From Candidatus Alcyoniella australis (GTDB lineage Bacteria; Lernaellota; Lernaellaia; JAVCCG01; Alcyoniellaceae), in contig JAVCCG010000146.1 in assembly GCA_030765605.1 (NCBI GenBank), forward strand, positions 1 to 53,771: a stretch of DNA of 53,771 nt. Direction: 5' to 3'. The translations under genes were made by a program, and so were the position numbers. The notes under the pieces were generated by a model. It searched no databases. It had not been told where the DNA came from and was given only the letters and a program-made list of their open reading frames with translations. Below are positions 7,514 through 10,037 of the stretch, piece after piece; the stretch's first letter is position 1; the number at the start of each line of letters is the position of its first letter.

Positions 7514-8599
7514 TCAGTCGTCGATGCCCAGCTCGCGCACCTGCTGCGGATCGAGGCGCCCCAAGGCCAGAGCGACCCGCAACAGCCTACGGTTGATGCG
7601 GTCCGTGGCCCGATCGGCCATCCGGCCGTTGATCATCGTCGCTCCGCGGCCGGATTGGTTGGCTCGGCGGTATTCCAGCGCCTCGTGCAGCGCACGTTCG
7701 ATGGCGGCCTGGTCCGGCGCGAACGCCTCGAGCACCACGTCGACCTGGGCCGGGATGCCGGTCCACTTGCCGCTGAAGCCCAACCCGCGGGCCAGCTCGC
7801 AGTCGCGCCGCAGCTGTTCCAGGGCCTGTGTTCGCTGCTGCTCGGTCTTGTCGCTGGTAGGGTAGTCCAGCGTCATCTCGGCAATCGCCGGCACCCCGAT
7901 TCCGGCCGCGGCCTCGACGATCCGCACCCGGGCCGCGTTGACCAGCGGATGGTCGGGTCGGTATTCCTCGGCGGGCATTCCCAGGTCGGCCCAATAATCG
8001 AAAGCGCCGAAGATCAGGCCCCGCAATCGACGGCCGACATCGGCAATCTCGTGGGCACGCTGGCAGGCCTGGACCGATTCGATCAGCACCTCGACCTTAA
8101 TCCGCCCCGGCTCAAGGCCGTGAGTTTGTTCAAGCTCGTCCAGGCATTGCTCGAGGCTGCGCAGCTCGTCCGGGCCCTCGATCTTGGGGTAAACCAGGCC
8201 CTCGAGGTTGCGGCCCGCCGCGGCCACAACGATCGCCAGATCCTCGAACCCCGGGTCCAGGCGCATACCGCGCGGCCGAAAGAAGCGCAGCCGCGGACCC
8301 CAGTCCAACTCGTTGAGTGCGCGAATCACGTTGCTCCGCCCCTGGGCCAAGGCCCGATGATCGCCCTCGGGGATCGAGTCCTCGAGGTCGAGCATCACCA
8401 GGTTGGCGCGGCTGCGCTGCACCGCGCCTTCAACGTACTTCCAGACCGTGGCCGGACAGGTCAGGTGGGCGGTCTGCGCCATGTAGCGCGGCTCGAGCTC
8501 GATGCGGCGTGCGTCATCGGTTGCGAGCAGCAACGCGTTGCGCTCCGCAGCGCGCTGTGTGATTCGGCCATCGAACTGAAACTTCGTTTGATCGTCCAT
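7514..8599 (-). CDS. HpcH/HpaI aldolase / citrate lyase beta (CitE)-like protein
   Basis: 361 residues, a TIM-barrel lyase of the CitE/malyl-CoA lyase group. Family motifs: VMLDLEDSIPEGDH (about 68-81, with the Mg-binding acidic pair), an Arg-rich segment FFRPRGMRLDPG, VEVLIESVQAC, and GLIFGAFDYWADLGM. These enzymes cleave or form C-C bonds in CoA thioesters or related 2-hydroxy acids using divalent metal. The start at 8599 is preferred (AAGGGGGG upstream); the frame is open 24 nt further. The C-terminal 45 residues (INGRMADRATDRINRRLL) are an uncommon basic extension. The gene stands alone between the M20 promoter and the small membrane gene, so the substrate remains open. Confidence 0.8.
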   Translation of the reverse strand: MDDQTKFQFDGRITQRAAERNALLLATDDARRIELEPRYMAQTAHLTCPATVWKYVEGAVQRSRANLVMLDLEDSIPEGDHRALAQGRSNVIRALNELDWGPRLRFFRPRGMRLDPGFEDLAIVVAAAGRNLEGLVYPKIEGPDELRSLEQCLDELEQTHGLEPGRIKVEVLIESVQACQRAHEIADVGRRLRGLIFGAFDYWADLGMPAEEYRPDHPLVNAARVRIVEAAAGIGVPAIAEMTLDYPTSDKTEQQRTQALEQLRRDCELARGLGFSGKWTGIPAQVDVVLEAFAPDQAAIERALHEALEYRRANQSGRGATMINGRMADRATDRINRRLLRVALALGRLDPQQVRELGIDD

Positions 8600-8753
8600 G
8601 GTCGCCCCCCTTGCCGTCCGCATGATGTTAACCTATCAGTGGCCGTCGTAAGACGCCATTGGGTCAAATGCCCGACATCTTTCAACGACCGCTTGACCGA
8701 TAATTGGTCGGCGATTGGGTGTCTCGCTCGATTGCGAACGATAAAGGATCAGC

Positions 8754-8924
8754 ATGGACGATTATTCGATTCTGATATTCGTCGGCGTTTTCGTCGGCTG
8801 GCTGTTGTTGCAAAAGGTGATCCTGCCGCGCCTGGGCGTCAGCACCTGAATGAGTCCTGACGCCGCCTCGTGCAGGCGGCCCGACTCAAAGGACGACCAG
8901 AAACCGCAGACCCCGGAGCGCTGA
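8754..8924 (+). CDS. small single-TM protein, candidate selenoprotein (UGA at codon 32)
   Basis: Seen: ATG at 8754 with AAAGGA 8 nt upstream; 31 codons encode an acidic start, one transmembrane helix (SILIFVGVFVGWLLLQ) and KVILPRLGVST; then TGA at 8847-8849; then 24 more open codons to TGA at 8922-8924. Reading the first TGA as selenocysteine gives 56 residues with Sec32 and a Cys at 40 (STUMSPDAASC). The tail is polar and charged and would be cytoplasmic or periplasmic depending on topology. A perfect hairpin starts 12 nt after the TGA (see SECIS entry). Inference: redox-active membrane microprotein. Alternative: a 31-residue membrane peptide ending at 8849. No sel genes are in the window, so this is not proven. 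Confidence 0.5.
8847..8880 (+). promoter_or_regulatory. possible bacterial SECIS element
   Basis: Right after the in-frame TGA (8847-8849) lies a 7-bp perfect stem GCCGCCT (8862-8868) / AGGCGGC (8874-8880) with loop CGTGC. The apical loop has G at its second position, about 20 nt beyond the TGA. This fits the known bacterial SECIS pattern: loop 16-37 nt after UGA and a G in the first two loop bases. No T-run follows, so it does not look like a terminator. Confidence 0.45.
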
Positions 8925-8993
8925 ACAAGCACTTGGCCCAACCGTTGACGGGCTTTGGCCCGGCCCGTTGATCCTGCTAAGATCTGCGGCGTA

Positions 8994-10037
8994 ATGAGCA
9001 ACAAGCGTACCCCGCATCCGAAGAGATCCAACCTGCTGTTCGTGGTGCTGGCCGTGCTGCTGGCGTTGGGCGCGGCCGAGGTTGTGCTGCGCTTGGTCGA
9101 ACGCTTCGGTTCCGGGCCGGAGCAATTCTACTCGGACATCTACGACGTCGAATACGTGATGTCTCAAGACGCTCGCAACCCCTACGGCGAACAGCACGAC
9201 CCGATGAACGCCTGGGGTCTGCGCGGTCCGGACTTCCCGCGGGCCAAGCCGCAAGGCGAGCTACGGCTGGTCTGCCTAGGCGACTCCACGACCTACGGCT
9301 TCACCTCGCTGGAGGATTCCTTCCCCGGCATCCTTCAACGGCTGCTCGATCAGCGCGACGGCCCGGGCCGCTGGCGCGTGATCAACGCCGGCATCCCCGG
9401 CACGGGATTCTTTCAGCAACTGCTGTTCTTCAACAAGACCCTGCTGCCGGCCTCGCCGGATTGGGTGGTGGTCTTCTCCGGGCCCAACTATTGGCCCGCG
9501 GTCAAGACCTACCGCGACCGGATGGAGTCACGAATCTACCGCTCGACGCGGCCGCTGCAGCTCGTGCTGCGGCGGCTGGCGCTGTACCGCGGACTGCGGC
9601 GGCTGATAAAGGGCGGAGTCAGCCCCGAGATCCTCGACGACAGCCAGATCGAGGACAACCCGGAGTTGCAGTACGACTCGGCCGAGTACAAGGCCGACTA
9701 CCGCAGGGACCTTGAAGCGTTCGGCCGCTTGGCCATTGAGCATGGGTTCAGGCCGATCTTCATGCGGATCCCCGACGAGCACAACATCCCGCAAGTTTTG
9801 GAGCAGGGGGTAGAGCCAGGGGACGAGTGGTTCGAGCAGGCCTGCGACAAGGTGCACTCCGAAACTGTAACCAAGCGCTTCGCCCTGGAACAGGGCCATC
9901 CTTGGCTGGACATGTACGCCGACTTCATCGAGCGCCGTGACGCGCCCGGGCTCTACGCCGACGACACCCACCCCGACGCCCTGGGCAACGAGATGATCGC
10001 CCGGCGGCTGCTGGAATTAATCCCTAAACCTGACTAA
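8994..10037 (+). CDS. membrane-anchored SGNH/GDSL hydrolase
   Basis: 347 residues with a basic N-terminus and one transmembrane helix (about 13-32), so the catalytic domain is probably periplasmic. Block I is VCLGDSTTYG (nucleophile Ser98), block III-like NAGIPGTGFFQQ follows, and block V is ADDTHPDALGN (Asp323, His326). Such enzymes are esterases, lipases or acyltransferases acting on lipids or polysaccharide O-acyl groups. The start at 8994 is chosen because the frame upstream overlaps the tail of the small gene and lacks a signal-like start. It ends convergently with the HAD gene with a 4-bp overlap. The substrate is unknown. Confidence 0.85.
   Translation: MSNKRTPHPKRSNLLFVVLAVLLALGAAEVVLRLVERFGSGPEQFYSDIYDVEYVMSQDARNPYGEQHDPMNAWGLRGPDFPRAKPQGELRLVCLGDSTTYGFTSLEDSFPGILQRLLDQRDGPGRWRVINAGIPGTGFFQQLLFFNKTLLPASPDWVVVFSGPNYWPAVKTYRDRMESRIYRSTRPLQLVLRRLALYRGLRRLIKGGVSPEILDDSQIEDNPELQYDSAEYKADYRRDLEAFGRLAIEHGFRPIFMRIPDEHNIPQVLEQGVEPGDEWFEQACDKVHSETVTKRFALEQGHPWLDMYADFIERRDAPGLYADDTHPDALGNEMIARRLLELIPKPD

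Follow-up and report, generated by a model that had tools for sequence, protein, structure and literature searches.

Among the systems closest to the locus described here are the prokaryotic selenoproteins, of which a 2026 inventory lists 119 families (PMC13188914, Table 1), and the eukaryotic membrane selenoproteins SELENOK and SELENOS. The bacterial SECIS element (bSECIS) is a hairpin located right after the UGA codon, with its apical loop 16-37 nt away and a G within the first two loop bases (PMC13188914). Bacterial selenoprotein surveys mostly seek Cys/Sec pairs in proteins of ordinary length. SELENOK and SELENOS are small proteins with a single transmembrane helix on the N-terminal side and a disordered cytoplasmic tail bearing selenocysteine (Sec); SELENOS forms a selenenylsulfide, and thioredoxin may be its electron donor (PMC10650576). 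Known responses to sulfide and persulfide include rhodanese and ArsR regulators of the SqrR/BigR type (PMC9774590). E. coli YgaV together with YgaP is such a BigR/SqrR-type system, and, to our knowledge, no selenoprotein is known in ArsR-rhodanese-YgaP operons of this type.

The window analyzed here is the 53,771-nt contig JAVCCG010000146.1 of Candidatus Alcyoniella australis (GCA_030765605.1). Its plus-strand region 8754-8924 (stop codon included) very likely encodes a genuine selenoprotein of 56 residues with Sec at UGA 8847-8849, as inferred from comparative sequence analysis, with no experiment on Sec incorporation. This reading rests on a UGA kept at one position across many phyla, the hairpin, selection on the downstream codons, and a full Sec apparatus; taken as a whole with the membrane redox mechanism proposed below, we consider it likely (probability approximately 0.88). 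A Shine-Dalgarno-like AAGGA (8744-8748), read from the sequence, lies 5 nt upstream of ATG 8754, and such a site is present in 102 of 125 family members. From the ATG, 31 sense codons encode MDDYSILIFVGVFVGWLLLQKVILPRLGVST; the in-frame TGA is followed by 24 open codons encoding MSPDAASCRRPDSKDDQKPQTPER, in which Cys40 (codon 8871-8873, U+8 in this protein) is the presumed partner thiol of Sec32, and by a terminal TGA, also read from the sequence, at 8922-8924. The original prediction, made from sequence alone, had claimed the same 31-codon frame with its ribosome site, in-frame TGA, 24 open codons, and Cys, and on reading the sequence this part held. Because of its internal stop codon, the gene had escaped annotation. 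It is followed by an SGNH/GDSL-like gene, and its divergent neighbor (7514-8623, minus strand) resembles the HpcH/HpaI (CitE) family, both named by eye from the sequence; the 401-codon plus-strand frame 7655-8860 opposite the latter is a shadow frame.

Distant matches found in a first search of 60 genomes already had TGA at the same place; five other hits of that search (L011-L015) were rejected as chance matches. Profile A1, built from nine sequences and run against 386 genomes, identified relatives in 44 of them, belonging to 34 families, and the Sec position was TGA in 45 of 46 places. The single exception (L072 3078-3200, in the SelA-bearing genome G254) has CGA (Arg) there and a very short tail ending in CK, and this copy may be decayed or repurposed. 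For an independent scan of 84,980 genomes of named species, we used the pattern [VFY][IV]LP[RK]LGV[PS]T, which stops short of the Sec codon; aligning the full set of 38 members gave too much diversity for this purpose, and a closer subset was taken. The scan returned 233 stretches, of which 174 were confirmed and 80 kept, and the next codon was TGA in all 80. Their hosts comprise Desulfuromonadales and Geobacter relatives (including Geotalea toluenoxydans JCM 15764, Geotalea sp. SG265, and Oryzomonas japonica Red96), Desulfobacterales, several classes of Acidobacteria, Planctomycetota, Nitrospirota, KSB1, Krumholzibacteriota, Chloroflexi, Myxococcales, and UBP1. Neither Cys nor TAA or TAG was found at the Sec position in the 386 genomes and the 80 named loci, and no member has Trp there. 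Homologs with Cys at position 32 had been expected, and that prediction failed. Two gene copies occur in a Desulfuromonadales MAG (L095 and L103) and in G360 (L074 and L093).

The bSECIS-type hairpin of the window gene occupies positions 8851-8888. Its upper stem of 7 bp (GCCGCCT/AGGCGGC, 8862-8868 and 8874-8880) carries the loop CGTGC (8869-8873), which starts 19 nt past the TGA and has G and U at loop positions 2 and 3, in agreement with the bSECIS rule (PMC13188914). The earlier description of a 7-bp GC stem with this loop and its G approximately 20 nt after the TGA was correct; the hairpin is, however, larger than described, as a lower stem of 6 bp (8851-8856 and 8883-8888) had been overlooked. 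With both stems, the whole 38-nt element therefore folds as one hairpin, and a fold check gave -20.2 kcal/mol (z -2.5), with 5 of 200 shuffles equally good. An Rfam scan of 8600-9100 yielded no RNA family.

Taken alone, the hairpin in the window is merely suggestive, whereas across the relatives it is far beyond chance. Hairpins obeying the bSECIS rule follow the UGA at 44 of 45 sites in the 45-member set (23 expected from dinucleotide shuffles) and in 77 of 80 further loci (37.7 expected), that is, in 121 of 125 members overall; in a control stretch 200 nt downstream, 45 of 80 pass this loose rule. Under a stricter definition, which required a stem of 6 bp or more and a loop no longer than 5 nt at a distance of 16-25 nt from the UGA, 67 of the 80 loci qualified versus 1.8 expected. 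In the commonest geometry, with the loop at +23 (42 distinct sequences), each of pairs 1-6 is represented by at least three pair types with almost no mispairs. The stem of the family hairpin thus strongly covaries, which is the outcome of the covariation check proposed together with the original prediction.

The codons beyond the UGA also behave as coding sequence. A Cys is found within 20 residues after Sec in 119 of 125 members, exactly at U+5 in 87 of them, and about six members lack a nearby Cys; in the 45-member set, 39 sequences have it in frame, whereas the two alternative frames give 17 and 11. Terminal stops in this set are TGA (24), TAG (12), and TAA (9). Among 13 independent close pairs, pN/pS was 0.17 before and 0.42 after the UGA, and the excess of synonymous changes after it was significant (p 8e-9). 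The post-UGA codons are under purifying selection, with the reservation that the pairs were picked by protein similarity, a choice that favors low pN/pS. Homologs that all ended at the TGA, or a genome without sel genes, would have refuted the original prediction. Neither was observed: the downstream codons are conserved and selected, and selA, selB, selC, and selD are all present in the host.

The host genome (4.29 Mb, 98% complete) encodes SelA, SelB including its C-terminal winged-helix domain, and SelD, whose own frame contains one TGA; its tRNA-Sec scores above the Rfam gathering score and was confirmed by ARAGORN (anticodon tca). SelA is found in 43 of 44 carrier genomes versus 190 of 386 overall (hypergeometric p ~1e-13, although species are not independent). 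The remaining carrier, G344, has the gene without a SelA match, and its genome is 82% complete. Within the window's own phylum, all five carriers have SelA and both non-carriers lack it.

The family motif, L-P-x-L-G-V-x-T-U-x(4)-C, is set on a lone transmembrane helix. AlphaFold2 predicts for the window protein one helix (residues 3-26, 8760-8831), which ends in the conserved LPxLG turn, followed by a disordered tail, with pLDDT of 87-92 over the first 20 residues. L24, P25, and G28 are conserved among relatives, and the tail is poorly conserved except for the Cys. The net charge in family members changes from -0.55 ahead of the helix to +1.1 behind it. According to the positive-inside rule, a positive tail lies on the cytoplasmic side. 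Based on this rule and the charge bias, we infer an N-out/C-in single-helix membrane protein with its tail in the cytoplasm. It resembles SELENOK and SELENOS in being a small one-helix protein with a disordered Sec-bearing tail, but does not match their Pfam profiles and has no Gly-rich segment. Moreover, Sec in SELENOK and SELENOS lies 2-3 residues from the C-terminus, whereas in the new protein it is placed at the membrane surface with 24 residues after Sec32, and the SECIS element is of the bacterial type, inside the coding region.

Direct hints to the partner of this protein come from fusions. Five species, all from one phylum (G086, G227, G388, G389, G390), carry an in-frame thioredoxin domain beyond the UGA and hairpin; the hairpin is identical (GCGGAA-GGTC-TTCCGC) in four of the fusion loci (L187, L188, L189, L190, L207) and compensated (GCGGGA-GGTC-TCCCGC) in the fifth. 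Two fusions (G227, G390) lack the U+5 Cys, and the thioredoxin CxPC possibly takes over its role there. As a caveat, the thioredoxin part might also arise from an internal start. The second TGA of three fusions is merely their terminal stop. As inferred from sequence, thioredoxin is the sole partner with such direct support, and a thioredoxin gene also lies directly downstream in L067.

Among the neighbors in the 125 loci, the most frequent adjacent gene encodes an FmdB zinc ribbon, present in 28 loci, in 24 of them within 150 nt on the same strand. It is downstream-adjacent in 20, often overlapping or within a few bases. Because there are just a few FmdB genes per genome, chance does not explain their adjacency in one-fifth of the loci. 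The FmdB family (Pfam Zn_ribbon_8; itself a rare listed selenoprotein) is distinct from the new protein, as it has no membrane helix, and the copies read here have intact CxxC pairs and show no similarity to it. Other neighbors are a YgaP-like membrane domain (YgaP-TM, 25 loci), an RND pump (24), an adjacent ArsR (21), rhodanese (14), TlpA (12), DUF302 (12), a P-II-like protein (10), and DUF6132 (8). ArsR, rhodanese, and the YgaP-like membrane domain are shared with sulfur-stress operons of the BigR/SqrR type (PMC9774590), but the Cys pair of SqrR was not shown for the ArsR copies beside the new gene, whose Cys positions vary, and these are thus no more than possible persulfide sensors of the SqrR/BigR type. 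In Acidobacteria (L123, L125, L126, L134, L146, L152, L158), the operon order is RND pump, YgaP-like domain, P-II-like protein, ArsR, selenoprotein, FmdB, and mostly DUF302. Geobacter relatives (L105, L113, L116, L133, L135) have a YgaP-like membrane protein gene right after the selenoprotein gene; one such protein ends in ILAKLGVPRFPKSCC, which by eye recalls ILPKLGVPTU..C. Homology of the selenoprotein with the C-terminal part of YgaP-like domains is thus possible, but was seen by eye only.

From the thioredoxin fusions and neighbors together with the sulfur-response genes, we therefore infer that the protein holds a selenol on the inner side of the membrane, recharged by thioredoxin, and acts in sulfur or oxidant stress. 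Sec-tRNA would be delivered at UGA 8847-8849 by SelB bound to the hairpin, yielding a product with one helix, its N-terminus outside and its polar tail in the cytoplasm. Located right at the membrane surface, Sec32 would reduce an oxidant there and form a selenenylsulfide with Cys40, which thioredoxin would reset. The most likely candidates for the substrate are a reactive sulfur species and a peroxide. We lean toward the thioredoxin-recharged redox role, which is inferred, and hold the inferred sulfur-stress substrate in particular with less conviction, as more doubtful than not. The substrate remains uncertain because contexts are mixed and many loci have no recurrent neighbor; none of these neighbors occurs beside the window's gene, so that the function of this copy rests on relatives. 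A quinone or peroxide link suggested earlier was not shown, and the neighbors favor thiol and sulfur redox.

Of the alternative explanations, the one that survives best accepts a genuine selenoprotein but gives it a role in handling metals or metalloids, in which it would assist an RND pump and ArsR and use Sec and Cys as metal ligands. This is possible, given the RND pump and ArsR counts above and a ZnuA gene beside L080; moreover, the similarity in the PDB of the adjacent ArsR proteins to SqrR and BigR is no better than to the metal sensors SmtB and NmtR. However, RND is missing from most loci, and the thioredoxin fusion in five species, together with thioredoxin/TlpA, rhodanese, and YgaP-TM neighbors, favors thiol/sulfur redox. 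Very unlikely is a selenium-sensing leader, in which UGA readthrough under plentiful selenium would control the next gene, often FmdB, rather than produce a working protein. The small size and the 20 loci with FmdB directly downstream speak for it, but the followers differ among loci, many loci have no conserved follower, the protein sequence is selected on both sides of the UGA, and the thioredoxin fusions are products in their own right. An ordinary gene end, with a 31-residue membrane peptide stopping at the TGA before intergenic DNA and a chance hairpin, is all but excluded: a plain table-11 reading does yield this peptide and the open run alone is short, yet TAA and TAG never occur at this position in 125 members while TGA makes up just 55% of long-frame stops in these loci, and the Cys, hairpin, selection, and thioredoxin fusions beyond the TGA as well as the tie to SelA oppose it. 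Reading of UGA as another residue, e.g., Trp through a suppressor tRNA or an altered code, can likewise be practically ruled out, since, although readthrough alone would account for the open frame, UGA terminates the same gene and about half of long frames, the SECIS hairpin and SelA co-occurrence would have no role, and Trp is absent from all members.

The selenoprotein family is likely new in the catalogs searched. Thirty-eight members gave no match in NCBIfam release 20 at E 0.1 and only chance-level matches in Pfam (weak hits to Arabinose_trans and DUF5337 were rejected as such), a PDB profile search gave nothing beyond chance, and the inventory of 119 families (PMC13188914, Table 1) has no such entry, an earlier mention elsewhere not being excluded. 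The family is like the catalogued ones in its UGA-encoded Sec, in the bSECIS immediately downstream of the UGA, and in the nearby Cys. In contrast to most of them, which have Cys homologs, it looks Sec-only because no Cys-for-Sec homolog was found, an unusual minimal membrane design. It was probably overlooked because its members are short, split by annotation, and without Cys relatives, and thus escape surveys built on Cys/Sec pairs. The gene was found in 43 of the 190 SelA-bearing genomes sampled, or about 20-25% of the Sec-using species in the sample, and selenoprotein counts of many species are therefore incomplete. A bolder reading, to which we give no more credence than doubt, is that of a widespread family of tiny Sec-only membrane selenoproteins whose selenol, coupled to thioredoxin, acts on the inner side of the membrane in a pathway of sulfur or oxidant stress. 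If the inferred function is true, the family would represent a convergent bacterial counterpart of SELENOK and SELENOS, and its size of under 60 residues makes its chemistry and structure easy to study.

FmdB may be linked to selenium use, given its presence beside both selA and the new selenoprotein gene. In the window's genome, selA is closely followed by a gene for an FmdB zinc ribbon (L001 1080-900, minus strand; G000:C17:65218-65331), and the same selA-then-FmdB arrangement occurs in G004 (C33).
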